In this document: positions 16,821-60,700 of the stretch, in pieces
Position numbering within the stretch: position 1 is the first letter of the stretch
Layout of the letters: each line of letters starts with the position of its first letter
Source: Yinghuangia seranimata
GTDB lineage: Bacteria; Actinomycetota; Actinomycetes; Streptomycetales; Streptomycetaceae
Direction of reading: 5' to 3'
NCBI RefSeq assembly: GCF_029953285.1
Contig: NZ_JASAOI010000078.1
Coordinates: 1 to 64,000, forward strand
Length of the DNA stretch: 64,000 bases
Notes under the pieces: generated by a model
Databases searched by the model: none
What the model saw: only the letters and a program-made list of their open reading frames with translations
What the model was told of the DNA's origin: nothing
Program-made: the position numbers and the translations under genes

Positions 16821-18722
16821 ATGTCGTTTCCCGGTCAGGCGCCGACGACCCACGTCGCGGCCCAGCGTCTCGGCTCTCCTCCGTCGTCACCCACTCTCCC
16901 GCCCGCGCCCGACCCGGATCCGCCGCTGCGGTCCGCCGACGCCGAAGCCGCCGCCGACCACGCGGCCGTCGAGGCGCTGCTGCGCTGCCGGTTGCGCGAG
17001 GACGGCGGGGCGGTGCGCGAGGGCCCGACCGTGCGGCCGGCGCTCGGCGCGGACGGCCCGGTCGTCGAGGCGGTCCTCGAGTACCGCTCGCCGACGGGAT
17101 GGCACCGCTTCGGCGCGGTGCGCGACGCGGACGGCACACACCTCGACGCCCCCGCGCTCGCGGCGCTGCTGTGCGCGGACCGTTCCCCCGAGGTGGCCGC
17201 CCAGTTGGCGGAACGCGTCGCGGACTCGGTGCGGCGCACGGCCCGGCACCTGCTGGCCCGGCACGCGGAGGCCGAAGGCCACTCCGCGTCCGCCGTCCCC
17301 ACCGCGCGCGGCACGGCGAACGGCTCTTCCGCCCCGGCCGCGCCCGAGTCCACCCCCTTTCTGGACGCGGAGCAGGCGCTCGTCCTCGGACACCCGTTCC
17401 ACCCCACACCGCACAGCCGCCAGGGCGTCGACGACGCGGAGGCGGAACGGTTCTCCCCGGAACTGCGCGGCCGGTTTCCGCTGCACTGGTTCGCCGCCGA
17501 CCCCGACGTGCTGCAGCTCGACGAGGACCTGATCGGACCGCTTCCGGCCATATTCGCCGCGCTCGCCGGACCCGGCCTCGAACGCCCGCCCGGCACCGTG
17601 GTGTTCCCCGCGCACCCGTGGCAGGCCCGCACCGCGGTGACCCGCCCGGCCGTCCGCGCGCTCCTCGATACCGGCCGACTCCACGACCTGGGCCCGGCCG
17701 GCCCGGAGTGGTCGCCGACGTCGTCCGTGCGCACGCTGTACCGCGCCGACGCGCCCGTGATGCTCAAGACCTCGCTCGGCGCGGAGATCGCCGACTCGCG
17801 GCGCGAGAACCTGCGCTCCGAGATGCGCCGCGGCCTGGCCGTGCACCGCATGCTGGACGCCGGCCTCAAACGCGTCCTGCACGGCGCGCACCCGGGTTTC
17901 GACGTCGTCCGCGACCTCGGCTGGCTGACGCTGCGCACCTCGGGCGGCGACGCCGGGGCGGGCACCGACGGGTCGGCCGCGTGCGGCGGCGCCAGCGGCC
18001 TCGAACTGGTGGTGCGGGACAACCCGTTCGGCGCCCGCGACCGCGTGCTGTGCGTCGCCGGGCTCACCGCCGAGCGCCCCGACCGGCCCGGCGGCCGCTC
18101 CGAACTGGGCCGCGTCGTCCACCACCTCGCGCTGCACACCGGCCGTCCGCTGGCCGAGGTCGCCGACACGTGGCTGCGCCGCTACCTCGACGTCGTGGTC
18201 GCGCCGGTCCTGTGGCTGTACGCCGACTACGGGCTCGGGCTGGAGGCCCACCAGCAGAACACCCTGGTCGTGCTGGACGGCGACGGCTGGCCGATCGGCG
18301 GCCGGTACCGCGGCAACCAGGGCTACCACTTCTCGGCGGCGCGGGGGACACCGCTCGCCCGCTGGCTGCCCGCCGACGTCCGCGAGGACCCCGGCACGTG
18401 GGCCACCGACGCCGTCGTCGACGAACGCCTCGGCTACTGCGTCGGCGTCAACAACATGCTCGGCCTCGTCGGCGCCATGGGCGCGCAGGGCCTCGCGGAC
18501 GAGACCCGACTGCTCGGCGACGTCCGCGCGTTCCTCGCCCGGCTGCGCGACGAGCACGCCGACCACGCCGCGGGCGACCTCGTCGACACCCTCCTCGACG
18601 CGCCGCGCCTGCGCTGCAAGGCGAACCTGCGCACCCGCGTCGCGGGCCTCGGGGCGCCCCCCGGACCCCACCCGAACCGGACCGTATACGTCGACATCGC
18701 CAACCCGATCGCGACCGGATGA
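16821..18722 (+). CDS. NIS siderophore synthetase, IucA/IucC family (first)
   Basis: A 633-residue ATP-dependent synthetase that joins a carboxylic acid (citrate, succinate or a derivative) to an amine or hydroxylamine in NRPS-independent siderophore synthesis. Family marks are HPFHPTPHSRQG near residue 192, VFPAHPWQ near 261, SVRTLYRADAPVMLKTSLG near 304, SRRENLRSEM near 329 and HQQNTLVVLDGDGWP near 477. The N-terminal 35 residues are Pro-rich and probably disordered. ATG at 16821 has GGGGAGG upstream. A second member of the family follows after 87 bases, so both probably act in sequence on one product. Confidence 0.93.
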   Translation: MSFPGQAPTTHVAAQRLGSPPSSPTLPPAPDPDPPLRSADAEAAADHAAVEALLRCRLREDGGAVREGPTVRPALGADGPVVEAVLEYRSPTGWHRFGAVRDADGTHLDAPALAALLCADRSPEVAAQLAERVADSVRRTARHLLARHAEAEGHSASAVPTARGTANGSSAPAAPESTPFLDAEQALVLGHPFHPTPHSRQGVDDAEAERFSPELRGRFPLHWFAADPDVLQLDEDLIGPLPAIFAALAGPGLERPPGTVVFPAHPWQARTAVTRPAVRALLDTGRLHDLGPAGPEWSPTSSVRTLYRADAPVMLKTSLGAEIADSRRENLRSEMRRGLAVHRMLDAGLKRVLHGAHPGFDVVRDLGWLTLRTSGGDAGAGTDGSAACGGASGLELVVRDNPFGARDRVLCVAGLTAERPDRPGGRSELGRVVHHLALHTGRPLAEVADTWLRRYLDVVVAPVLWLYADYGLGLEAHQQNTLVVLDGDGWPIGGRYRGNQGYHFSAARGTPLARWLPADVREDPGTWATDAVVDERLGYCVGVNNMLGLVGAMGAQGLADETRLLGDVRAFLARLRDEHADHAAGDLVDTLLDAPRLRCKANLRTRVAGLGAPPGPHPNRTVYVDIANPIATG

Positions 18723-18809
18723 CCCGGACCCCATCCGGCTGACGATCCGGGAAACTCGCGTTACGTTCGGCGTGTGCCAACCGGCGCGCGCCGAACTCCA
18801 GGAGGGCCC

Positions 18810-20648
18810 GTGCCGCTGCCTGACTTCCCCGAACTCACCGGTCCCGCATGGCAACGGGCCTCCGCCGCACTCCTGCTCTCCGTCCTGTCCGAGTACGCGT
18901 ACGAAGGGCTGCTGCTCCCGCTCCCGGACGAGGAGGCGGGCGACGAACGCCCCGACCCGGACCGTGTGGTGCGCTACCGGCTCGAGCTGGCCGGCCACGT
19001 CGTCTACTCGTTCCGCGCGCGGCGCGGCGCGTTCGGCTCGTGGCGCGTGCAACCCGGTTCGGTGCTGCGGGTCGCGGACGGCTCGGCCGCACCGGCCACC
19101 GATCCGGCGCGGCTGATCGTCGACGCGCGCGCCACGCTCGGCCTCACCGCCGAGGCGACCGCGGGCCTGGTCGCGGACGTCACGGCCGCACTGCTCGGCG
19201 CCGCCCGCGACGAGGCACGCGGACTGCCCACCGCCGCCGAACTCGCCGACCTTCCCTACCTCGACCTGGAGGGCCGCGTCGACGGCCACCCCGGCCTGGC
19301 GCCGGGCCGGTCCCGGCCGGGCTTCTCGGCGAGCGACGCGACCCGCTGGGCGCCGGAGGCGCGCAACCCCATCCGCCTGCCGTGGGCGGCCGTGCACCGG
19401 GACATCGCCGTGTGGGGGTCCGCCTCGCCGGAGCTGACCGAACAGCGGCTGCTCGCCGAGGAACTCGACCCGTCGACCCGCCGCCGGTTCACCGCGCGAC
19501 TGCGCGACCGCGGCGTCGACCCGGCCGACTACCTGTGGCTGCCGGTGCACCCGTGGCAGTGGGACGAGACCGTGCTGCCGTTGTTCGCCGCCGACCTCGC
19601 CCACGGCCGCATCGTGCCGCTCGGCGACGGCGGCCCCGACCGCTACCTGCCGCGCCAGGCGGGCGGCGGGTTCACCAACCTGGACCGCCCCGGACGCCGC
19701 GACGTTGCGCTCCCGCTCGCCGGCCCGGACGCACCGCTCGGCACGCGGCTCCCGGCGCCGGCGCGGCCGTCGCCCGAGACCACCGGGTGGCTCGTCGACC
19801 GGTACCACGCCGACCCGTTCCTGCACGGCGAGACGCGCGTCGTGCTGCTGGCCGACCTCGCGTCCGTGACCGTGCGGCACCCGCACCTGGACGCCGTGCC
19901 GGGCGACGGCGACGGCGGGCACGACGCCACCGCGGCCGGCCACCCGTACCGGGGCCTGTTCGGCGCGCTGTGGAGCGAACCGCTCGCGGCCCGCCTGGAG
20001 CCCGGCGAACGCGCCCGTCCGCTCCCCGCGTTGCTGCACCGCGACCACACCGGGCGACCCCTCGTCGCCGAACTCGTCGAGCGCTCGGGGCTGGCGCCGC
20101 GCGAGTGGCTGCGCTGGTTCGGCGCCGCACTGCTGCCGCCGCTGCTGCACCTGCTTTACCGCTACGGTCTGGCCGTCCCCGGATACGGCGAGGCCCTGGT
20201 CGTGGTCTCCGACGCCGGAGAGGTCCCGGTGCGGCTCGCGGTCCGGGACGCGGCCCGCGGCCTGATGGTGTGCGGCGACCCGGCGGGGCGGCCGTTCCCC
20301 GAGACCGAGGGCCTGCCGCCGGCGGGGCCGAAGGGCCCGGTGGCGACACACCCTCCCGACGAGGTCGCGCGCACCCTCGGCGGCGGCCTGTTCGGCGGCC
20401 CGCTGCGCCACCTGTCGCAGCTCGCCGACGACGAACTGGGCGTCTCGGAGACGGCGTTCTGGGCGCTCATGCGCGCCGAGGCGGCCCGCTACCAGCAGCG
20501 CTTCCCCGAACTCAAGGAGCGCTACGCGCTGTTCGACCTGCTGGGCCCGAGGATCGCCCGGTACACCCCCAACCGCGACCGGCTGCCGAGGCAGCGCGCC
20601 GCCCCCGTGCCGCCGACGGCCAGCCCGCTGTCCGGACCGGTCGGCTGA
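18810..20648 (+). CDS. NIS siderophore synthetase, IucA/IucC family (second)
   Basis: A 612-residue paralogue of the gene before it, likely making a second amide or ester bond in the same siderophore. Marks include DGHPGLAPGRSRPGF near residue 160, LWLPVHPWQWDE near 242 and LARSLF-free but conserved C-terminal RYQQRFPELKERYALFDLL near the end. I chose GTG at 18810 because AGGAGG lies just before it; GTG at 18774 has no such site. The usual partners (amine-forming decarboxylase, N-hydroxylase, acyltransferase, ferri-siderophore uptake) are missing nearby. The pair must therefore rely on genes elsewhere or use a simple amine. Confidence 0.92.
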   Translation: MPLPDFPELTGPAWQRASAALLLSVLSEYAYEGLLLPLPDEEAGDERPDPDRVVRYRLELAGHVVYSFRARRGAFGSWRVQPGSVLRVADGSAAPATDPARLIVDARATLGLTAEATAGLVADVTAALLGAARDEARGLPTAAELADLPYLDLEGRVDGHPGLAPGRSRPGFSASDATRWAPEARNPIRLPWAAVHRDIAVWGSASPELTEQRLLAEELDPSTRRRFTARLRDRGVDPADYLWLPVHPWQWDETVLPLFAADLAHGRIVPLGDGGPDRYLPRQAGGGFTNLDRPGRRDVALPLAGPDAPLGTRLPAPARPSPETTGWLVDRYHADPFLHGETRVVLLADLASVTVRHPHLDAVPGDGDGGHDATAAGHPYRGLFGALWSEPLAARLEPGERARPLPALLHRDHTGRPLVAELVERSGLAPREWLRWFGAALLPPLLHLLYRYGLAVPGYGEALVVVSDAGEVPVRLAVRDAARGLMVCGDPAGRPFPETEGLPPAGPKGPVATHPPDEVARTLGGGLFGGPLRHLSQLADDELGVSETAFWALMRAEAARYQQRFPELKERYALFDLLGPRIARYTPNRDRLPRQRAAPVPPTASPLSGPVG

Positions 20649-20779: not shown

Positions 20780-21640
20780 ATGACCTACTCCGCAGAGATC
20801 AGCCGCGCGCATCCCGGATGCCTGATCTTCCTGGTCGACCAGTCCAGTTCGATGGACGACCCGATCGGGACCGCGCCGGGCGACGACACCCCCGGCAAGG
20901 CCCTGCCGCGCAAGGCCGACGTCGTCGCGGACTCGCTCAACCGCCTGCTCTTCGAGCTCTCGGTGCGCTGCGCCAAGGAGGAAGGCGTCCGCGACTACTT
21001 CCACATCGCCGTGGTTGGCTACGGCGAACTGGTGCAGCCGGCGCTCTCCGGCGCCCTCGCCGGGCGCGAACTGGTGCCGCTCAGCGAGATCGTCACGTAC
21101 CCGGCGCGCTTCGAGGCCCGCGTGAAGAAGGTCCCCGACGGCGCGGGAGGCGTCGTGGACCGCACGATGGAACTCCCGGTGTGGGTCGAGCCGGTGGCGT
21201 CCGGCGGAACCCCCATGTGCCAGGCCCTCGGCTACGCGGGCAAGCTCGTGCAGGGCTGGGTCGACACCCACGGCGACGGCTTCCCGCCGATCGTGCTCAA
21301 CCTGACCGACGGCGAGTCGACGGACGGCAACCCGTCCGAGGCCGCGACCCGGCTGCGCTTCCACGTCACCGGCGACGGCGAGGCGCTGCTGTTCAACCTG
21401 CACATCTCCGCCAACCGGACCGCGCCCATCACGTTCCCCGGGCCGAACGACGCGCTGCCCGACAAGTACGCCCACCTGCTGTCCACGATGTCCAGCGAAC
21501 TGCCGCCCGGCATGCGGGCGTACGCCACCGAGCAGGGCCAGGACGTCACCGACGGCGCACGCGGGTTCGTCTTCAACGCCGACATGTCGGCCGTCGTGCA
21601 GTTCCTCGACATCGGCACGCGCGCCGCGGACATCAGGTAG
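20780..21640 (+). CDS. TerY-like vWA domain protein (triad A)
   Basis: A 286-residue cytoplasmic protein that is almost all one von Willebrand factor A domain. The metal-ion-dependent adhesion site is complete: DQSSS at residues 20-24 and the TDGES loop near 176, with SGGTP near 138. It resembles TerY of tellurite/stress systems. It is followed on the same strand by a PP2C-type phosphatase and a kinase, 5 and 8 bases apart. This is the order of the TerY-phosphorylation triad described from comparative genomics. It is clearly a paralogue of the leftward vWA gene ending at 28175. ATG at 20780 has GAGGTGAG 8 bases upstream. Confidence 0.9.
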   Translation: MTYSAEISRAHPGCLIFLVDQSSSMDDPIGTAPGDDTPGKALPRKADVVADSLNRLLFELSVRCAKEEGVRDYFHIAVVGYGELVQPALSGALAGRELVPLSEIVTYPARFEARVKKVPDGAGGVVDRTMELPVWVEPVASGGTPMCQALGYAGKLVQGWVDTHGDGFPPIVLNLTDGESTDGNPSEAATRLRFHVTGDGEALLFNLHISANRTAPITFPGPNDALPDKYAHLLSTMSSELPPGMRAYATEQGQDVTDGARGFVFNADMSAVVQFLDIGTRAADIR

Positions 21641-21645
21641 CCCGG

Positions 21646-22500
21646 GTGCGCGCCCAGGTCACGATCCTCGCGCTGCACAAGGGCGGCGGAGCGCCGCACG
21701 AGTACGAGGACGCCGTGTGGGTCGGCAGCCGCACCGCCGAGGGCCCCGAGCGCGGCCTCCTGCCGCCGCCGGGCCCGGCGTGCCGCAGCGGCGGCGTCGG
21801 CCGGGTGGCCTCGCTGCGCGCCGCGGTCGCGGACGGCGCGTCCAGCAGCCTGCTCGCACGGCGCTGGGCACAACTGCTCGTACGCGAGGCCGGCGGGGCG
21901 CCGACCGGTCTGCTGCGCACCGGCCAGGGTTTCGCCGAAGTCCTGACACGCGCCGCCGACCGGTGGCCGGACCTGATGAAGGACTACGTGCGCAACCGCG
22001 AGCTGCGCGGCAAGCCGATCACCTGGTTCGAGCGCCCGGGCCTGGAGGCGGGCGCGCACGCCACACTGCTGGTCGCGCACTTCGCCGCGCACCGCTGGGC
22101 GCCCGCGCGCGGGACCTGGTCGGCCGTCGCGCTCGGCGACGCCTGCCTCTTCCAGGTGCGCCACGACCGGCTGCACGTCGCGTTCCCGCTGACCGCGTCC
22201 GGCGAGTTCGGGAACACCCCGCCGCTCGCCGCGAGCGGCGGGCAGGACCCGGAGGCGGTGCGGGCCCGCGCCGGCCTGGTCTCCGGGCACTGGCGGCGCG
22301 GCGACCGGTTCTACCTGGCCAGCGACGCCATGGCGGCGTGGTTCCTGCGCCAGGTCGAGGTCGGCCGCAAGCCCTGGGACCTCCTGCGCGCGCTGGACTA
22401 CGCCGGGCCGCGCGACCTGGCCGCCTGGGTGGAGCGACGGCGCGGCGCGGGCGAACTGCGCAACGACGACGTCACCCTCGTCCGCATAGCACCGCGGTGA
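21646..22500 (+). CDS. PP2C-like phosphatase (triad A)
   Basis: A 284-residue protein of the metal-dependent PP2C/PPM fold, predicted to remove phosphate from Ser/Thr. The metal-binding acids are kept: EDAVW near residue 21, AVADGASSS near 62, ALGDACLF near 164, LASDAMAAWFL near 223 and NDDVTLV near the C-terminus. The usual DGMGG is replaced by DGASS, and the family is divergent from RsbU/Stp types. GTG at 21646 lies 5 bases after the vWA stop, with only a weak ribosome site, so translation is probably coupled. It is expected to oppose the kinase coded next. Confidence 0.88.
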   Translation: MRAQVTILALHKGGGAPHEYEDAVWVGSRTAEGPERGLLPPPGPACRSGGVGRVASLRAAVADGASSSLLARRWAQLLVREAGGAPTGLLRTGQGFAEVLTRAADRWPDLMKDYVRNRELRGKPITWFERPGLEAGAHATLLVAHFAAHRWAPARGTWSAVALGDACLFQVRHDRLHVAFPLTASGEFGNTPPLAASGGQDPEAVRARAGLVSGHWRRGDRFYLASDAMAAWFLRQVEVGRKPWDLLRALDYAGPRDLAAWVERRRGAGELRNDDVTLVRIAPR

Positions 22501-22508
22501 GGTAGGCC

Positions 22509-25031
22509 GTGGTCCGAGGAGCGGCGGGAGGGGGATCGGGGGCCGGGGTGGACGGACCGTTGCCGACCGGGGCGGACTACAGCGAGGCGTTGCGCGACAC
22601 GGCGCTGTGCTTCAAGCACCCGGCGCTGGCGCGCGGCATGGTGGCGATGGGTCCGCTGCGGATGCCGCGCGTGGTCTCCGGCAACTTCGGCAGCGTCTTC
22701 CGGGTCACCTCGACGAACCCGGGGGACGGCGGCGGCCCGGGCAACGGCCGCGAGTTCGCGGTCAAGTGCTTCACCCGCGCGGTCCCGGACCGGCTCCGGC
22801 GCTACCGTGCGATCGGCCGCGCGCTGGACGGCCTCGCGGCACCGGACGGGGACTGGCGCGTCGCGTTCGAGTACGTGCCCGAAGGGGTTCTGGTGCGGGG
22901 CCGGTGGTACCCGGTCATCCTCATGGAATGGCTCGACGGGACCGCGTTGATCCCGTGGCTGGAAGCACACCTCGACGAGCCGGACGCGATCACCGGACTG
23001 GCCGCGGAGTTCGCGGACGTCGTGGACGGCCTGGAGGCGTCCGGCATCGCGCACGGCGACCTCCAGCACGGCAACCTCGTCGTCGCCCGGGAGGGCGGCC
23101 TGCGGCTGATCGACTACGACGGGATGTACGTGCCCGACCTGGCCGGGCTGGGCGCCGCCGAGCACGGGCACCGCAACTACCAGCACCCGAAACGGTCTGC
23201 GGCCGACTTCGGGCCCGGCCTGGACCGGTTCTCGGCGCACCTGATCCACCTGACGCTGCGCGCCCTCGCCAAACGTCCCGAGCTGTGGGGCATGTTCCAC
23301 GAGGAGGGTGGCGAGCACCTGCTGCTGACGGGCAACGATTTGGCGGACCCCGCAGGCTCGGAGCGCTTCGCGACCGTGGCCTGTGCCGTCCCGGAACTCA
23401 CCGACGCCTTCGCGCGGTTGGCGGTCTGGGCGCAGCGTCCGCTCGCTGACGTCGAGCCGTTGGGCGACGGCACGGGCCTCCCGCCGCGCAAGCCGCGCGC
23501 GGTGGCGTCGTCCGCGCCGGCCGGGCCGGCCGCCCAGGGCGGCGGCGGCCTGCCCCCGTGGCTGGCGGAGGCAGTGAGCATGGCGGGGGCGACCGGCGGC
23601 ACGCGTGCTGTCCCGAGGACGCAGGCACCCGCCGCGCCGACGGCCGCGCCGAGCGTCGGCGAACCCGTCGTGCCGAGGCTGGTCGGCTCGAACTCCGGTG
23701 CCGGGACCGGCGGATCGTCGGCATCCGGGGCGAACGGGCGCCCGCCCGAATTCACTCCGCTCATGGAGGCGTTCTTCGGCCCGCAGAAGCCGAACGCGGC
23801 TCCGCCTCCGAACGGCGGCAGGCCGCAGGTCCCGTCCCGGCCCGGGGCGGCGCCGGGCTCGACGCCCATACCCCCACCGGCTGTCCCGCGTTCGTTCACG
23901 AAGACCGCCCTTCGCACCCGCGTGAAGGTGCGCGCGGGGATGCTCGTCCTGCTGATGGCCGGGGCGCTGTTCGGCTGCTCGGCTTTCGGCGTCGGCCCGT
24001 TCGCCGGCGTCCTGCCGGCGCTCGCCGGGGTGGTCGGCGCGGTGGCGGTGGCCGGGAGCGTGTCCCAGGCGCTGAACGGCGTCGTGTCCGCGGCGTACCG
24101 CAGCAGCCCGGAGATGCTCAGGCGGGCCGCCGCGGAACGGGTCGCGGCGCAGGTCGCGGCGGCCGAGCGCCTCGCGGCGGCGAAAGTCGGGGAACGGCGC
24201 AAGGCGCACCGCGAACTGCAAAGGCGCCGCACGGAGCTGACGGCCTGGCACATCACCGAGGCGCGCATTCTCAAGAACCGCAACACGTACGAGCGGGAGA
24301 GCGTGGACCGGCACCTCGCCGAGGCGCTGGACGCCGTCGAGCAGCAGCGTGTGCTGCTCGAAGGCTCGGTCGCACGCGACGAGCTCCAGGCCCTGCGGTC
24401 GCTCCAAACACGGCTGCTGAACGAGGGCCTGAAGAAGCACCCGCTGCCGGTCGCGCTGCTGGGCGCCGGACTCGTCGCTTTCCTGGGGCACGAAGGCGTG
24501 TGGACCGCCGCCGACTTCACGCGGGTGACCTCCGCGGTGCCGACCACGCCGGAGGAGCGGGACCGGGCGGTGATCGTGACGTCGCGTCCGGGACGGGTGG
24601 TCAAGGTCGACGGCCTGCCGCCCGCGAAGGCCCGCGAACTCCAGGAGTGGCGCGACGAGATCGCCGAGGAGCTGCGGGTCCGGCTGCCCGGCGCGCTGCC
24701 GTACGACGTCGCCCAGGAGCTGCACCGCAAGCGCGCCGAGCGGCGCCTCGACCTGGCCCGGCAGGCCGCGCGGGCGCGCGCGGCGGCGTTGGAGGCGACG
24801 GCCGAGCTCGACGCCGGCCTGACGGAGGCGATCGGCTACCTGGACGGCGCGCTGGCGACCGACGGAGGGGCGCTGGACGCGGAGCTGTGGTCGGCCGCCG
24901 CGGAACTCGCCGACGCCGAGGACGCGCACGGCGCCGCGGAGAAGGCGCTGGCGAACGCGCGGAACGCCGTGGCGGCGTACGACGACCTGACGACGGCCCG
25001 CTTCGTGTGGTCGGTGACGACCGGCTTGTGA
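22509..25031 (+). CDS. kinase with membrane, coiled-coil and HhH-like tail (triad A)
   Basis: An 840-residue protein. Residues 35-320 are a protein kinase-like domain. It has a glycine loop SGNFGSVFRV, the ATP lysine in FAVKCFTR near 86, the catalytic loop HGDLQHGN near 183 and DYDG in place of DFG near 204. A Pro/Ala-rich linker follows. Two hydrophobic segments lie near 475-520, then long charged helices. A helix-hairpin-helix-like unit is near 657-727 (KVDGLPPAKARELQEWRD). Kinases of TerY-P triads with HhH tails (YegI-like) have this plan. GTG at 22509 starts 8 bases after the phosphatase stop. The target and any DNA binding are unproven. Confidence 0.88.
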   Translation: MVRGAAGGGSGAGVDGPLPTGADYSEALRDTALCFKHPALARGMVAMGPLRMPRVVSGNFGSVFRVTSTNPGDGGGPGNGREFAVKCFTRAVPDRLRRYRAIGRALDGLAAPDGDWRVAFEYVPEGVLVRGRWYPVILMEWLDGTALIPWLEAHLDEPDAITGLAAEFADVVDGLEASGIAHGDLQHGNLVVAREGGLRLIDYDGMYVPDLAGLGAAEHGHRNYQHPKRSAADFGPGLDRFSAHLIHLTLRALAKRPELWGMFHEEGGEHLLLTGNDLADPAGSERFATVACAVPELTDAFARLAVWAQRPLADVEPLGDGTGLPPRKPRAVASSAPAGPAAQGGGGLPPWLAEAVSMAGATGGTRAVPRTQAPAAPTAAPSVGEPVVPRLVGSNSGAGTGGSSASGANGRPPEFTPLMEAFFGPQKPNAAPPPNGGRPQVPSRPGAAPGSTPIPPPAVPRSFTKTALRTRVKVRAGMLVLLMAGALFGCSAFGVGPFAGVLPALAGVVGAVAVAGSVSQALNGVVSAAYRSSPEMLRRAAAERVAAQVAAAERLAAAKVGERRKAHRELQRRRTELTAWHITEARILKNRNTYERESVDRHLAEALDAVEQQRVLLEGSVARDELQALRSLQTRLLNEGLKKHPLPVALLGAGLVAFLGHEGVWTAADFTRVTSAVPTTPEERDRAVIVTSRPGRVVKVDGLPPAKARELQEWRDEIAEELRVRLPGALPYDVAQELHRKRAERRLDLARQAARARAAALEATAELDAGLTEAIGYLDGALATDGGALDAELWSAAAELADAEDAHGAAEKALANARNAVAAYDDLTTARFVWSVTTGL

Positions 25032-25083
25032 GTCTGGGCCGTACCGGGTCCCCGGCGCCGGCCGGGCGCTGCACGGGAGACGC

Positions 25084-27303
25084 TCAGGAGCCGCCGAACG
25101 TGAACCTCAGATAGCGCGCGAACGACAGCTTCTCGATCTCCTTGCCGAGCCGGTCGCGCTCGGCGGTCAGCCGCTGGTGGTCGCCCAGCAGGGCCTGGTT
25201 GCGTGCCGTCTCGCGGTCCAGGTCCAGGGCCCGCAGCCGGAACCGCTCCTTGGCCTCGCGGTCCTCGTCGCCGAGGCGCGCCCGCTCGGCGTTGACCCGG
25301 GTCGTCGCCTCCCCCTGACGCTGCTTCACGAGCGCGTCGTAGCGGACGAGTTCCGCCTCGAGATGGGTGCGTCGCGCGGCGAAGCGCGCCGTGATGGCGG
25401 CGACGTCGGCCGCTGTGGCGGTGGTGGGCGCGGACGTCCTGAGCCGCCGCTCGATGCTGTCCCGCCAGCGCATCAGGGCCTCCGCATGGGCGGGCGTGAA
25501 GTCGAGCGGCTTCGCCAGCGAGCCGTCGGCGCACACCAGCAGCAACGCGTCCGGCCCGTCGGTCGTCGGCATGCGGCGAAGGCCGGTGAAGTCGGCGGCG
25601 GTACGGATTCCGAACGCGGCCAGCCGCGGGATCATCACGCCGCTCACTCCGGGGACGCCGGCCTTGTCGACCGGGTACTGGCGCAGGCGCTGTTGGACGA
25701 ACGCGTCCCGAACCACCGTCAGCACGTCGGCCTGTGCGGCACGCAACGCCGCGTCCAGACCGTCGAGTTCCTGCTGGAGCGGGTAAGCCTCCCGGGCGAC
25801 CTCCTGGCGGATCGCCGCGTGGCTGTGGCTCAGGTGGTAGTCCAGCTCCTGGTGCCGGTCGGCGGTGTCGCGGACCCGGGAGGTCTCGGCCTTCTGAAGT
25901 CTGCGCCGCTCGTGGGCGAGCGCGGCCAGTTTCACGTTCGGGTCTCCGAGGTCGTTGAGCTTCCAGAAGACCTCCTTCTGGCGCTGTTCCAAGGTGCCGA
26001 CCTCGGGCCGCGACTGGTGGCTCACGTACGGGATGTAGAAGCTGAACGGCACCGTGGCGACGGCAGCGTACGGGAACAGCAGCAGGGCCACGACCGTCGC
26101 GGCCAGGCCGAGCACGAAGCTCGCGACGACGGCGAGTTCCATCCCTCCGCGGCCGTGGAAGCCGGCTGCGGCGGCTTGCACGCCGCTGCCGGGAGTCGGC
26201 CGTGTCGGGACGGGGCGGGCGACGGGCCCGCCGCCCGCGGCACGGATGTTCGCGGGTGAGGCGGTCGGGTCTGCCGTGTCGCCGGGGGAGTGCTTCGTCA
26301 TCCAGTCCGGCAGCGGCCCGCCCCGCGCTGCCGAGCCGTTCGCCGCGGCCGGGGGCGGCACCGGGAGCGAACCGTCCAGCTCGGGTATCCGCCCAAGCGG
26401 CAGCACGGCCAGCCGGCCCAGTTCGTCGGCGAGCCGCCGAACCGCCGGGTCGGGGTGCCCGGTCAGGGCCGGGAACCGGGCCGAAGCGTCCGGCGCCTTC
26501 AGGTCGTCCTCGGTGAGCAGCAGGTACTCGCCGCCCGGCTCGTGCAGCCGCTCCCACAGGTCCGGCTCCGCCGCGAGGGCCAGCAGCGAGACGTGGATCA
26601 GCCACGCCGAGAACCGGTCCACGTCCGGCCCGAAGTCGTCCGAAGTACGCATCGGCGACTGGTAGTTGCGGTGCCCGTTCTCGGTCGCCCGACGTCCCGC
26701 GAGGGCGGGCACGAACATGCCGTCGTAGTCGACCAGCCGCAGCGTGCGGTCGGGTGCCACGAGCAGGTTGCCGTGCTGGAAGTCGCCGTGCGCGATCCCC
26801 GCGTCCGCGAGGTCCGCGGCGAGCGCGGCGAAGTTGTCGGCGACGGTGCGCACCGCGGCCGGTTCGCCGATGTTGGCGTCGAGCCACTCCGTCAGGCCGA
26901 CGCCGTCGACCCAGGCCATCTTCAGCACCGGGTACCAGCGGCCGTTGACCAGCACGCCGCGCGGCAGGTACTCGAAGCCCATCTTCCACGGCTGGGACAG
27001 CGACGCGTCGTCCAGGCCGGACAGCAGGGCGCTGATCGCGCGGTAGCGGTCGGCCTGGTCGGGCACCTCGCGGGTGAAGCACTTCACCGCGAACTTGCGG
27101 CCGGTGGTCGCGGAGGTGACGGTGAACACGCTGGCGAACGCGCCCGATATCGGGCGCGGCAGCCCGAGTCTCGTCAACGCCGGGCTGCCGCCGCGCAGTT
27201 CGGGGTCGGCGAAGCACAGCCCGGTGTTCTGCAACGCCTCGGCGTACGCGGCACCGGTGGGGTAGGCGCGCGGCCGCGGGCGGTCTACCGGCTGGGCGTC
27301 CAC
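25084..27303 (-). CDS. kinase with membrane, coiled-coil and HhH-like tail (triad B)
   Basis: A 739-residue paralogue of the rightward kinase, facing it tail to tail with 52 bases between stop codons. The kinase domain has SGAFASVFTV, FAVKCFTR near residue 73, HGDFQHGN near 172 and DYDGMFVP near 192. Then come a Pro-rich linker, a hydrophobic segment near 388-425, long coiled-coil helices and a hairpin region near 554-621 (AADFTGLRRMPTT, then LDFTPAHAEALMRWRD). GTG at 27303 has GGAGG 4 bases upstream and overlaps the phosphatase stop by 19 bases. The C-terminal 130 residues are a strong coiled coil. Confidence 0.88.
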   Translation of the reverse strand: MDAQPVDRPRPRAYPTGAAYAEALQNTGLCFADPELRGGSPALTRLGLPRPISGAFASVFTVTSATTGRKFAVKCFTREVPDQADRYRAISALLSGLDDASLSQPWKMGFEYLPRGVLVNGRWYPVLKMAWVDGVGLTEWLDANIGEPAAVRTVADNFAALAADLADAGIAHGDFQHGNLLVAPDRTLRLVDYDGMFVPALAGRRATENGHRNYQSPMRTSDDFGPDVDRFSAWLIHVSLLALAAEPDLWERLHEPGGEYLLLTEDDLKAPDASARFPALTGHPDPAVRRLADELGRLAVLPLGRIPELDGSLPVPPPAAANGSAARGGPLPDWMTKHSPGDTADPTASPANIRAAGGGPVARPVPTRPTPGSGVQAAAAGFHGRGGMELAVVASFVLGLAATVVALLLFPYAAVATVPFSFYIPYVSHQSRPEVGTLEQRQKEVFWKLNDLGDPNVKLAALAHERRRLQKAETSRVRDTADRHQELDYHLSHSHAAIRQEVAREAYPLQQELDGLDAALRAAQADVLTVVRDAFVQQRLRQYPVDKAGVPGVSGVMIPRLAAFGIRTAADFTGLRRMPTTDGPDALLLVCADGSLAKPLDFTPAHAEALMRWRDSIERRLRTSAPTTATAADVAAITARFAARRTHLEAELVRYDALVKQRQGEATTRVNAERARLGDEDREAKERFRLRALDLDRETARNQALLGDHQRLTAERDRLGKEIEKLSFARYLRFTFGGS

Positions 27304-28178
27304 GCGGCCTCCGCGACGCTGAGGACCACCACGGCGACGTCGTCGTTGCGCAGGGCGCCGGCCGAGCGTTCGGCCGCGACCAGCGCCGCGAAGCGCTCGC
27401 CGTCGGCGTCCCGCGCGCACTCGTCCAGCAGGCGCAGCCGTTCGGCGGCCTCGTCCGGGGCCGCGCCCAGCAGCCACGCCGAGAACGCGTCGGTGGCCAG
27501 CACCAGACGGTCCTCCGGCCATGCCGCCCCGGCCGCGAACCGGGTGCGCTCGGCGACCAGTTCCGGATCGGCGGCACGGCTGCCGAACAGGTCGGGCGAC
27601 GTGCCGAAGTCGTCCGCGGAGTCGACCGGGAAGGCCCCGACGACGCGGCCGTCCCGCACGTGGAACAGGCAGCTGTCGCCGAGCGCTGCGGCGTGCCAGC
27701 GGCGCGGTGCCGGGTCCGGGCTGTCGTCGTACGGCGCCGGCTCGTCGTCGAGGCACGGCGCTTCTACCCGTACTGCGAGCAGCGTCGCGAACGCGCCCTT
27801 GGCCAGGCCGGGTTCCTCGTACCAGCGCACCGGTCGGCCGCGCGCCGAGCGGTCGGCGACATAGGTGTCGACGTAGTCCCGCCAGGCGTCCGTGAGCCCC
27901 GCCGCGAACGCCGCGTACCGCGCACGGTCGGTCAGCAACTCGGGGTCGTGGTACGCCGCGAGCGCCGCGCCCGCGCTGACCTGGTGCGCCCAGGCCCGGG
28001 CGAGCAGGCTCTCGGAAGCGCCGTCGGCGACCGCGGCGACCAGCGGGCCGTCGGAGCCGAGATCCCCCAGGCCCGCTTCGTCCGCCCCGAGCACGCACAG
28101 CGCGTCCTCGCACTCCTCGGCGCTGCTGCCGTGCTTCGGGACCAGGAACGCCGCGGCCCGGTCGACGCCCGCGATCAC
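27285..28178 (-). CDS. PP2C-like phosphatase (triad B)
   Basis: A 297-residue PP2C-fold protein, paralogue of the triad A phosphatase. Key acidic positions are kept: ECEDALCVL near residue 23, AVADGASESLLARAWA near 50, ALGDSCLFHV near 167, LATDAFSAWLL near 226 and NDDVAVVVL near 282. It starts with GTG at 28178, in a 4-base overlap with the stop of the vWA gene (28175-28178), so the two are tightly coupled. It probably reverses phosphorylation by the kinase coded next, which overlaps it by 19 bases. Confidence 0.88.
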   Translation of the reverse strand: MIAGVDRAAAFLVPKHGSSAEECEDALCVLGADEAGLGDLGSDGPLVAAVADGASESLLARAWAHQVSAGAALAAYHDPELLTDRARYAAFAAGLTDAWRDYVDTYVADRSARGRPVRWYEEPGLAKGAFATLLAVRVEAPCLDDEPAPYDDSPDPAPRRWHAAALGDSCLFHVRDGRVVGAFPVDSADDFGTSPDLFGSRAADPELVAERTRFAAGAAWPEDRLVLATDAFSAWLLGAAPDEAAERLRLLDECARDADGERFAALVAAERSAGALRNDDVAVVVLSVAEAAWTPSR

Positions 28179-29014
28179 CGCAGCTCGGTGGCGCGCGTGC
28201 CGATGTCCAGGAAGTCGACGATCGAGACGATGTCGGCGTTGTAGACGAACCCGCGCGTGGCGTCCGACATGCGGTACCCCTGCGTCGCCGCGTAGCTGCG
28301 CACGCCGCTCGGCAGCACGCTCGACATCGCGAACAACTGCCGCGCGTAGGCGTCGGGCAGGTCCGCGTCGGAGTCGGGGAACGTGGTCGGCGATCCGCCG
28401 GTGTCCGACACGTGGCTGTTGTAGAGCAGCGCCGTGCCGTCCGAGGACGCCCGCGCGGCCAACGCGGCCGCAGCGGCGCTCGGGTCGCCGTCGGTCGACT
28501 CGCCGTCGGTCAGGTTGAGCACGATCGGCGGGAATCCGTCCGGGTGTTGCTCGACCCAGCCGGCGACCAGGTTGTCGGCGTACGACAGCGCGCGCACCAT
28601 CGGCGTGCCCCCGTTGGCGACCGGCTCCAGCCAGAGCGGGAACGTCACCGACGTCTCGACCAGCCCGCCCGCGCCGTCCGGGACCTTCTTGACGCGCTCG
28701 TCGATGCGCGCCGGATTGTCCGCGACCTCGCTGATCGGCACCAGGTCGCGGCCGGCCAGCGCGCCGCCGAACACCGAGCCGACCGAGGTGTGGCCGTAGC
28801 CGATCACCGCGATGTGGAAGTAGTCGCGGACGCCTTCCTCTTTCGCGCACTTGACCGACAGCTCGGTGAGCAGCCGGTTGATCGCGTCGGCGACCACGTC
28901 GGCCTTGCGCTGCTTCACCTCGCCGCCGATCGGGTCGACCATCGACGCGGACTGGTCGACGAGGAAGATGAAGCAGGTCGGATTGGTCCGGCTGATCTCC
29001 GCCGTGTAGACCAT
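28175..29014 (-). CDS. TerY-like vWA domain protein (triad B)
   Basis: A 279-residue vWA protein, close to the triad A copy over its whole length. By eye more than half of the aligned residues are identical, including FHIAV-GYG, KKVPDGAGG and PPIVLNLTDGESTDG. The MIDAS site is intact: DQSAS at 20-24 and TDGES near 168. ATG at 29014 follows AGGAGGG at an ideal distance. The copies differ mainly in the loop after the first MIDAS element, where triad A carries about 7 more residues. It opens a three-gene operon with overlapping junctions. Confidence 0.9.
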   Translation of the reverse strand: MVYTAEISRTNPTCFIFLVDQSASMVDPIGGEVKQRKADVVADAINRLLTELSVKCAKEEGVRDYFHIAVIGYGHTSVGSVFGGALAGRDLVPISEVADNPARIDERVKKVPDGAGGLVETSVTFPLWLEPVANGGTPMVRALSYADNLVAGWVEQHPDGFPPIVLNLTDGESTDGDPSAAAAALAARASSDGTALLYNSHVSDTGGSPTTFPDSDADLPDAYARQLFAMSSVLPSGVRSYAATQGYRMSDATRGFVYNADIVSIVDFLDIGTRATELR

Positions 29015-29176: not shown

Positions 29177-30493
29177 TCAGAGGCCGGGGATGCGGCCGTT
29201 GCGGAACAGGTCGACGAAGATCGCGTGGTCCTCGCGGGTGCGCGCCGCGTAGCTGTGCGCGAACTCGACCACGTGCGCCACGAAGGCCTCTTCGTCCGGC
29301 TCGACGACCGCGCGGATCGCGTGCTCGGTCGAGAACGGCACCAGCGTCTGCCCGCTGCTGGCCTCGTCAGCGACCGCGTGCATGGTCGCGGTGGCGCGCG
29401 CGAGGTACTCGACCACGATGCGAATGTCACCGGGCTCGTTGAGCGCCGACCAGTCCAGGTCGTTCGCGTACGGCGAGACCTCGGCGACCAGTTGGCCGAC
29501 ACCGTCGATGTCGGTGTAGCCGAGCCACGGGTCGGCGTGCGCCTGGAGCGCGCGCTGCGAGATCACCGTGCGGTGGCCCTCGTGCTCGAAGTACGCCCGC
29601 ACCGAGGGGTCGGTGACGTGCCGGCTCGCCGCCGGGGTCTGGCCCTGCTTCATGTACAGGATCACGTCGTTCTCGAGGGCCTCGGTGCTGCCCTCGATCA
29701 GCAGGTTGTACGACGGCAGGCCGGCGCTGCCGATGCCCACGCCGCGGCGTCCGACGACGTCCTTGACCTCGTAGGTGTCCGGGCGCGAGCGGGTCGTCTC
29801 GGGCATGGTCGCCAGGTAGCGGCCGAACGCCTCGAGGACCGTCTTGCGGGTGTCGTCGTCCAGCGGGAACGCGCCGCCGGACATCGCGAAGCGGCGGTCG
29901 TAGCCGTCGATGACGGTCTGCTCGTCGAGCAGCCCCACCCGGGTCTGGAGGCGGGCCTGGTGCAGCACGTCGAGCAGCGGCCCGGTCGCGGTGCTCAGCG
30001 TCAGCGCGGTCTGCGCGGAGGCCGGGTCGTCGGTGAGCATGAGGATCTGCGCGCGGTACGCGCGGGCGTAGTCGGCGACCAGTTCGCTGATCAGGTCGTC
30101 GCTGAGGGCCTTCGCGTAGCCGATGAGGGCGAGGCTGGCGGCGAAGCGCTGCACGTCCCACACGAAGGGCCCCACGTAGGCCTCGTCGAAGTCGTTGACG
30201 TTGAAGACCAGGCGGCCGTCGGCGTTGAGGTAGGTGCCGAAGTTCTCGGCGTGCAGGTCGCCGTGGATCCACACGCGCCCGGTGCGCTCGTCGACGAACG
30301 GGTTCGCCATGCCGTCGACGTCCGCGTAGTACAGGCAGGCGGTGCCGCGGTAGAACGCGAACGCCGACGCGGCCATCTTGCGGAACTTGACCCGGAACGC
30401 GGCCGGGTCGGAGGCGATCAGCTCGCCGAAGGCCGCGCCGAAGACCTCCAGGATCCGCTCGGCCCGCTCGTCCCGGCCTATCTGCTCGAACAC
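29177..30493 (-). CDS. DUF2252 family kinase-like protein
   Basis: A 438-residue cytoplasmic protein of the DUF2252 family, at its normal length. It shows FRVKFRKMAASAFAFYRGTA near residue 30, then HGDLHAENFG near 75 and NDFDEAYVGPFVWDVQR near 96. Those two motifs look like the catalytic loop and metal-binding Asp of the aminoglycoside phosphotransferase/protein kinase fold, so a small-molecule or protein kinase role is plausible. The substrate is unknown. GTG at 30493 has GGAG 8 bases upstream. It lies upstream of triad B on the same strand with a 162-base gap, so separate transcription is likely. Confidence 0.9.
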   Translation of the reverse strand: MFEQIGRDERAERILEVFGAAFGELIASDPAAFRVKFRKMAASAFAFYRGTACLYYADVDGMANPFVDERTGRVWIHGDLHAENFGTYLNADGRLVFNVNDFDEAYVGPFVWDVQRFAASLALIGYAKALSDDLISELVADYARAYRAQILMLTDDPASAQTALTLSTATGPLLDVLHQARLQTRVGLLDEQTVIDGYDRRFAMSGGAFPLDDDTRKTVLEAFGRYLATMPETTRSRPDTYEVKDVVGRRGVGIGSAGLPSYNLLIEGSTEALENDVILYMKQGQTPAASRHVTDPSVRAYFEHEGHRTVISQRALQAHADPWLGYTDIDGVGQLVAEVSPYANDLDWSALNEPGDIRIVVEYLARATATMHAVADEASSGQTLVPFSTEHAIRAVVEPDEEAFVAHVVEFAHSYAARTREDHAIFVDLFRNGRIPGL

Positions 30494-30624
30494 CCCACCG
30501 ACTCCTTCTGCGCTGTTCGCGCACACTGGCTGCCCCCGCCCGCTCCGCAGCATGCCAGGCGGCGGGGTAAAGGCGGGATGTGGGTGGGTGCTTTGGTGGC
30601 TTTGGTGATGGTTTCTGACAATGC

Positions 30625-57757: not shown

Positions 57758-60700
57758 TCACACGGGATCGTCGGGATCGCTCCAGAACATCCGCCATGGC
57801 GTCTTGTCCGGATTGCCGGGGAATTCCGGGCCACCCACGATGATTCCACGTTGGTTCAGGAGGGGATAGCATGTCGCTTCGCATATGTTGCGCGACGTTC
57901 CGCCGAATTCGACGAATTCGCGGGGGCCGAGTGAGTTTATCACTCCCTCCTCGGCGTGGCCTTCGCCGGGAGCGAACGCATCCTTGGCCCATTGCGGCCA
58001 ACTGTCCGGCGCCTCTGTGGCGCCTCCGTTGATCCCGGTACGAATACTCAGGTCACCGCTGGCCGCGTCGCGGACGCCGATGACCGTAGTGGTTCCCCAT
58101 ACCCCGGCGTCCCAGTGGTCGTTGGTGGCGGTGAAGCGCAGGTCCTGAAGGTCCTGCGCGGCCTGTTGGGCGAGGACGGCGTCGTCGTACGTGCTGAGTC
58201 CCGGCTCGTATGTCGACAAGCCGAGCGGATCAAATGCCGTGAGCGGATTCCCGACATAAGAATGGTTGTTGGGTCCCGCGCGGAATCCGAGAGGATCAGG
58301 GCTCGCGTAGGAGCCGACCTCCGGGATATACCAGCGGAAGAAGTTCTGGCGGAGCTCGGACTCGACGTCGTCCTGCTGCCCGGCGAAACCCCTGCGTGGC
58401 GGTCCGGTTTCGTTGCCCACGGGGGCACCCCAGAGGCTGCTCCGCTGAGGGCTCTCTCGTGTGCCGCTCACATCGACCGTGGAGGTCGGCGTCCCGACGC
58501 GGTCCGCGACGATGACGCGGAAGGCGGATCCACCGTCCGTCCGCGTCGACGGTGAGACGGGTTGCGAAACGGCTGTCTCGGTGAGAGCGCGGTGCGTTCG
58601 GGGTGCGAAGTCCCAGGTCGTTGTCTCGTCTTTGCCGGTGACGGTCTCCGTTAAGCACGGGCCGTCCCAGACGAACTCCTCACACTGCGCGGGGCCGGCG
58701 GTCGCCGATGTGCGGCGCTTGGCCGTGCGACGGCACAAAGGGTCGTAGATGTACGTCCACTCGGACCCGTCCGGAGCCGTCATGGCGGTCAGCCGGTCGT
58801 CGGAGTCCCAAGCGAACGTCCAGGCGCGTCGGGCCCCGGAGAGGAGCCGCTTGGTGCGGCGGATCAACCGGCCCTGGGCGTCGTGCTCGTAGTGGGTGCG
58901 GCCTGCGCGGCGGATCAGTGTTCCGGAGAACTGGCGGTCTCCTTGGCCGCACCCGTCGTCCGGGGACGGTCCTGTCGGCCATTCGGCCCGGGCTATGTTG
59001 CCCAAGGCGTCGTAGGCATAGCGCTCGGTCCAGTCCCGCGCGTGGACGGCGGTGACGCGGCCGACCGGATCGAGGTCGTACGTGGTGGTGCCGTACTCAG
59101 TGTCCGTATGGGTGGTGGGGAAGCCGTCCGCACGGTACGTGTAGGTGCGGCGGTGGAGTTCGCGAGGGCCGGCGTCCGGACTGAGCGCTGCGGTGACCGG
59201 GTCGACGGGGGCGCCCCGGCGGATCGACTGCGCGGCGAGTCGGCCCAGGGGGTCCCACTCCTGCGCGAGCGTCACGTCGTCGCCGAATCGGCGTTCGGTC
59301 TCCCGACCGAGGAGGTCATGGGAGAAAGCGACGAGGTTCCCGGCGCTGTCGAGGGTGAGGGGGCGGCCTGCGGCGTCGTACGTCCACGTGCTTACATGCC
59401 CCGACGGGGTCTGGCGACGTATTCGGCGTCCGAGTGCGTCGTAGCTCTTCGTGAGGCGGCGGCCGTTGGACACCTCGGCGGTGGTCCGACCCAAGAGATC
59501 GTATTCGAAGGTGAGTTCGACGTCGGGGTTGGCTGTGTGCACCAGCCGGCCTGCTGTGTCGTAGGTGTACGTGGTCGCGCGGCCGGTGGCGACATGAATC
59601 TGACGCGTGACTTTGCCGCGCGTGTCCAGCTCGTATGAGACCTCTTCGCCCGCACCGTTGACGCGGGCCACGATACGGCCGACGGCGTCCAGGCCGTAGG
59701 CGACCTCGCGCCCGTCGAAGTCCCGCTCGGCGACGAGCCGACCCGCGGGGTCGTAGCTGTATGTCCAGGACTGTCCGAGAGGGTTCGTGACCGAGGTCAA
59801 CCGCAGCTCGGTGTCGTAGCCGAATTCGTAGCGGGTGCCGTTCTGGTCGGTACGTGCCGCTGGTTTGTCGAAGTGGGTGACCTCGTAGAGTCGAAGGCCG
59901 CCGTTCTTGTCCCGGTACTCCGTCAGGTTGCCTTCGGCGTCGTACGTCCAGTGCTCGCCGACGTCGTTGCGGACACGGCTCAGCGACTTGCCCTCGATGG
60001 TCCATCGGTTGTGAGTGGTCTCGCCTATGGCGTCGGATACTTGGGAGGGGCGGCCGAAAGCGTCACGGGTGACGCGTGTGCGGGCGCCGACCGGGTCACG
60101 CATGTCGAGAGGCAGCCCTGCCGCGTCGTGAGTGAGGCGCCGTACACCGCCGAGCGCGTCCGTGACGGCGACCGCGCGTCCCCATTGGTCGCGTTGGTAC
60201 TCCGTGCGGGCACCGGACGGGTCGACGACGGCGGTGCGGTTGCCGCGGTTGTCGTACTCGTACGTCCATGTCGTGGCGTCGGCCCCGGTCCTGAGGAGCG
60301 GGTTGCCGAAACCGTCGTAGGTGGCTGTGGTCGTCGTGCCGTCGGCCCGCTCGGCGCGGGTGACGCATCCGAGATCGTCGTAGGTGAAGCGGGTCGGGTG
60401 GCCGAGCGCGTCGGTGAATGCGAGCAGGCGGTTTCGGTCGTCCCATTCCTTGTGGATGGTGTTCCCCAGCGGATCCGTCTCGCTGGTGATCTGGTACGCC
60501 GCGTTGTAGCGGTAAATCGTGCTGTGGCCCAAGGAGTTCGTCGCCGTTGTGGTGCGTTCGGCGTCGTTGTAGGTGAAGCGGGTGTCGAGGACGCCGTCCT
60601 TGCCTGTTGTGCGTATGCACCGGCCCGACGCGTCGTACTCGTAGACCGAGGACATGCCTATGCGGTCGGTCCAGCCGGTGATGCGGCCTGACGCGTCGTA

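Follow-up and report, generated by a model that had tools for sequence, protein, structure and literature searches.

The window, a 64,000-nucleotide stretch of Yinghuangia seranimata DNA with a GC content of 72%, makes up nearly all of a 65-kb contig in a genome of 9.8 Mb. It carries two intact sets of three genes, each encoding a vWA protein, a PP2C phosphatase and a kinase, which converge tail to tail (Table 1). All six genes lie where the first-pass annotation had placed them, and its description of mirror-image vWA–PP2C–kinase triads with 52 bases between the kinase stop codons is confirmed by the gene models. The mirror partners are homologous, as it had also claimed, with identities of 61% for the vWA proteins, 38% for the PP2C proteins and 50–52% for the kinase domains. 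The tight or overlapping junctions within each triad are equally apparent. In triad 1 the PP2C gene has a GTG start 5 nt past the vWA stop and the kinase gene begins 8 nt past the PP2C stop; in triad 2 the PP2C gene overlaps the vWA stop as GTGA and the kinase gene overlaps the end of the PP2C gene by 19 nt. The codon-position GC of all six genes is typical of real genes, and neither codon usage nor GC marks triad 2 as foreign. The gap between the two kinase genes contains no terminator-like or structured element, the fold z-scores being -0.24 and -0.10 and the terminator scan empty.

Table 1. Positions of the triad genes and their bordering features in the window
Feature	Position	Strand	Evidence
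Two IucA/IucC-type siderophore synthetase genes	16992..20648	+	Pfam IucA_IucC; synteny
Triad 1 vWA (TerY-like), 286 aa	20780..21640	+	PADLOC TerY 2.8e-98 over 1-277/277
Triad 1 PP2C phosphatase	about 21646-22500	+	PADLOC PP2C 1.7e-19
Triad 1 kinase, 840 aa	22509..25031	+	PADLOC STK_OB 2.6e-65, kinase half only; AlphaFold2 model
Intergenic gap of 52 bases, kinase stop to kinase stop	25032..25083		
Triad 2 kinase, 739 aa	25084..27303	-	STK_OB 7.3e-72; AlphaFold2; YegI E=1.9e-9
Triad 2 PP2C phosphatase	27285..28178	-	PADLOC PP2C 1.8e-21
Triad 2 vWA (TerY-like), 279 aa	28175..29014	-	PADLOC TerY 5.8e-105
DUF2252 gene, right border of the triad 2 variable slot	29177..30553	-	Pfam DUF2252 6e-112; synteny

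The first-pass annotation assigned both units to the TerY-P type, and profile searches bear this out. The PADLOC models for TerY, PP2C and kinase (STK_OB) match all six proteins at levels far beyond chance, the TerY model being matched over its full length by both vWA proteins; generic Pfam models mostly remain sub-threshold for the six. The MIDAS is intact in each vWA protein (D20-x-S-x-S, T144 and D177 in triad 1; D20-x-S-x-S, T137 and D170 in triad 2). The metal-site motifs of the phosphatase are present in triad 1 (ED, ADGA, LGDA, ASDA and NDDV) and intact in triad 2. The catalytic motifs of the kinase are likewise intact in each triad, the triad 1 enzyme displaying GNFGSVF, AVK, HGDLQHGN and DYDG, and HGDxQHGN and DYDG are invariant among 32 related kinases. 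Each unit consists of three adjacent, co-directional genes with catalytic or MIDAS residues intact, and judged by sequence both are TerY-P triads.

The C-terminal half of the kinases requires separate consideration. The match of the STK_OB model to the triad kinases ends at position 291 of 562. Since its second half is also unmatched in the other triad kinases scanned, it is mainly structure models that argue against an OB fold here. AlphaFold2 models computed from alignments with related proteins (mean pLDDT 88 for the triad 2 kinase and 79 for that of triad 1) contain no beta barrel in either protein, showing coil-HhH-coil instead, and neither kinase appears to possess the OB fold of the STK_OB defence subtype. 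The predicted order in both is kinase domain, disordered linker, hydrophobic helices, coil, HhH-like unit and second coil. In these models the first coil spans at least 85 residues, the HhH-like unit is short with a small sheet, and the second coil is long. The hydrophobic helices, at about 468–532 in the triad 1 kinase, look like membrane anchors. Structure comparison of the triad 2 kinase model confirms the kinase fold and nothing more, with protein kinases matching the first 310 residues at Z about 16; in a search of solved structures the kinase profile returned generic kinases only and the vWA profile no match. The C-terminal half of the triad 2 kinase is homologous to E. coli YegI, the alignment running from the first coil through the HhH at E=1.9e-9. 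The Pfam HHH_5 model is matched in YegI and in two of 32 window-type kinases, and a Pfam search of the window kinases themselves detected no HhH. As modelled, both kinases have the YegI-type layout, with membrane helices, coil and HhH after the kinase domain.

TerY-P modules have been shown in tests to protect against phage (PMC7699616, PMC10889362, PMC11090510). They include the triad of Gao et al. 2020, on which PMC7699616 and PMC11090510 report, and a P. aeruginosa system which acts on Autographiviridae (PMC10889362). The Gao-type system is likewise a stand-alone set of vWA, PP2C and Ser/Thr kinase. Its tested kinases end in an OB fold, however, whereas those of the window, by the STK_OB model and structure prediction, bear membrane helices and coil-HhH-coil; furthermore, the window has two triads side by side. 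A second comparison is offered by E. coli, where YegI is described as a membrane-bound autophosphorylating kinase, dephosphorylated by PphC and characterised biochemically (PMC13232886). The E. coli K-12 gene order, yegL-pphC-(yegJ)-yegI, is that of the window triads, and YegI has membrane helices, a coil and an HhH as in the window kinases. The kinase, vWA and PP2C domains are by contrast only remotely similar (window family profiles give 1.5e-10 for YegI, 3e-9 for YegL and a weak 1e-3 for PphC), and the E. coli set is without a second triad. The suggestion in the first-pass annotation that such a unit had not been described experimentally is therefore wrong for the kind, given the phage tests of TerY-P and the biochemistry of YegI and PphC. 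Two further associations are known. Actinobacterial kinase-TM, PP2C and vWA sets are associated with GAP1-N2 GTPase conflict systems (PMC7159879), in which an active, sometimes TM-fused kinase occurs with PP2C and stand-alone vWA genes as here, but the 80 window-related triads lack a conserved partner gene. TerY-P associated with CoCoNuT systems (PMC11090510) has the same vWA, PP2C and kinase triad, but its kinase has a C-terminal zinc ribbon and McrBC-type genes lie alongside, neither of which is seen in the window.

The genus sample comprises three genomes, that of the window and those of two congeners, G001 and G002, each of which has one TerY gene. Syntenic orthologues of triad 1 are present in both congeners downstream of the same IucA/IucC genes, the left border of the conserved block containing this triad, and their vWA proteins are 80–82% identical to that of triad 1. 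Triad 2 is absent from both, the same slot being filled by unrelated genes. In G002 two esterase genes and a B12/radical-SAM gene lie between the kinase and DUF2252 genes, the latter conserved (88%); in G001 the slot holds a gene for a BNR-repeat protein. Of DUF2252, no more than the final 31 codons remain at the slot border in G001 (L076:3995-4103), a trace of deletion or replacement. Triad 2 belongs to a separate lineage and occupies a variable slot just downstream of the genus-conserved triad 1.

Trees were built from the vWA proteins, the kinase domains and the concatenated proteins, PP2C entering through the concatenated tree only. In all three, triad 1 clusters with its congener counterparts and triad 2 is placed in a separate, wide streptomycete/actinobacterial clade. 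Triad 2 is without close relatives, its end branch measuring 0.61. Sisterhood of the two window triads is rejected by AU tests (p-AU 3e-45 for vWA, 9e-5 for the kinase domain and 1e-58 for the concatenated proteins), and so is a duplication at genus level, in which triad 2 would join all genus copies of triad 1 (2e-4). Trees pointing to separate acquisition, which the first-pass annotation had named as fatal to its own account of the pair, are thus what the AU tests yield. In the rooted concatenated tree the split between the triads predates the radiation of several actinobacterial families, although the stem of triad 1 is long. The same tree places Nocardia and Actinopolymorpha inside streptomycete clades, indicating between-family transfers. 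Given the separate clades and the rejected sisterhood, the pair was therefore formed by juxtaposition.

Around the triads there is little to suggest further components. Across 80 related loci no conserved fourth gene accompanies them, the best neighbour family occurring in 14 scattered loci, so the triad is a stand-alone unit, as the first-pass annotation had supposed. Its claim that TerD-type partners are absent also stands: no TerD match was found on the contig of the triads, and TerC is not among their annotated neighbours, so that the arrangement is not that of a ter operon with adjoining TerD-type genes. There are 19 TerD-like genes elsewhere in the genome, on other contigs and none near the triads. 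No flanking defence gene is present, the annotated neighbours being mostly metabolic, and the triads have no linked gene for a substrate or effector. At some distance, on the minus strand at 57758-62503 of the window, lies a gene for a large WXG100-like/RHS-repeat protein, of the polymorphic-toxin kind by architecture. Mobility is weakly documented, since no match was found among 50,697 phage records and the only two plasmid matches are distant and cyanobacterial. The IucA/IucC genes, kept in both congeners, lie directly upstream of triad 1 and are co-directional with it; a link of the vWA metal-site module to the siderophore genes is possible. The vWA and PP2C genes of triad 1 are under purifying selection, with dN/dS of 0.21–0.24 and 0.34–0.37 respectively. 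Within its kinase gene, dN/dS is 0.35–0.46 for the kinase domain and 0.80–0.97 for the membrane/coil part. Neighbouring genes give 0.13–0.28, so triad 1 is less constrained, its proteins changing faster than those of the neighbours and most in the linker and coil.

The best reading of the pair is one of two parallel membrane-anchored kinase/phosphatase switches. We put at roughly 0.62 the probability that these are two side-by-side YegI-like, membrane-kinase TerY-P triads of separate lineages, each forming an independent reversible phosphorylation switch. In such a switch the kinase would be anchored by its membrane helices and carry the coil-HhH-coil as a stalk. By analogy with YegI and PphC, kinase and phosphatase are inferred to be antagonists within each triad, PP2C stripping the kinase of its phosphorylation. 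The vWA protein might conceivably serve as a Mg-dependent (MIDAS) adaptor holding the kinase, the phosphatase or a substrate peptide, and one may speculate that the coil-HhH stalk senses nucleic acid or the state of the envelope. The input would probably be phage-induced or nucleic-acid/envelope stress, and the output a putative phosphoprotein. That the two switches act independently of each other is likewise conjecture.

The triads are probably phage-defence or stress sensors, an anti-phage role being suggested by the tested TerY-P systems. Their use as ordinary envelope or DNA-stress modules unrelated to phage defence, as YegI and PphC may be, is a credible but rather less probable alternative. 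A general stress role may be indicated by the absence of defence neighbours and by a C-terminal architecture resembling that of YegI and not the OB-fold defence kinase, and triad 1 has been stable at one locus in the genus. Against this, the distribution is patchy, with strong matches to TerY (E below 1e-40, counted from the match table) in 26/395 Streptomycetaceae genomes; triads have passed between families; their proteins change faster than those of their neighbours; and the vWA proteins match a TerY model from a defence library over its full length. The patchiness, transfers and faster evolution fit a conflict role without proving it. The common kinase layout, which is widespread in actinobacteria, links the TerY-P triad of phage defence to the poorly understood YegI-PphC-YegL set of E. 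coli.

As to when the pair was formed, both triads may already have been together in the ancestor of the genus or earlier, with triad 2 subsequently lost from the two congeners. The long end branch of triad 2 and the variable, deletion-prone slot with its DUF2252 remnant are in keeping with an old pairing, and with a genus sample of three genomes such losses can be envisaged. This history is nevertheless unlikely, as both congeners would have to have lost triad 2 and gained different cargo in its place, and the pair is seen only in the window's genome among those sampled. The simpler history has triad 2 inserted into a variable slot.

Paired triads are rare in the genomes sampled. Among the 395 Streptomycetaceae genomes only that of the window has two strong TerY genes, and the overlapping order and class samples contain no further adjacent pair, although several genomes from a different family carry two TerY genes on separate contigs. 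A tandem pair occurs in one of 80 named relatives, Nocardia miyunensis. In strain NBRC 108239 (L148:6205-13799) two divergent TerY-P triads lie in direct tandem. In the first kinase a beta-rich region, OB-like by eye, is accompanied by a membrane helix at the C-terminus; the second is of the coil-HhH-coil type. The mirrored pair is seen in no other genome sampled. The Nocardia pair is independent and tandem, so that divergent triads have become neighbours on two or more occasions and in differing orientations. Behind this recurrence there may be a hot-spot effect or selection. In the latter case paired triads could share or exchange components, with one vWA protein feeding both kinases, for example, or the convergent, terminator-less kinase transcripts dampening each other, and so give a two-input switch. 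Such a selected arrangement would be a recurrent one, since N. miyunensis has formed its tandem pair independently, yet we regard it as improbable. Least probable is the history proposed in the first-pass annotation, in which a single ancestral triad was copied in tandem and in inverted orientation within this lineage and the copies diverged into two cross-talking switches: perfect mirror order, 52-bp spacing and three homologous partner pairs speak for it, but the AU rejections of sisterhood, the genus-level version included, and the presence of triad 1 alone at the same locus in the congeners leave it next to no room. Mirrored paralogous operons need not stem from duplication.

The strain naturally carries two divergent triads, which allows the insulation of such switches to be addressed. 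A third triad was considered in the window's genome and rejected: the TerY search of the genome yields only two, and the PP2C and kinase-like matches on contig C88 belong to an ordinary FHA-PP2C-FtsW-PBP-PknB locus. Gene orientation also varies elsewhere, for in a distant triad (G207, L105:9625-12221) the kinase gene lies on the opposite strand and converges on the vWA-PP2C pair.
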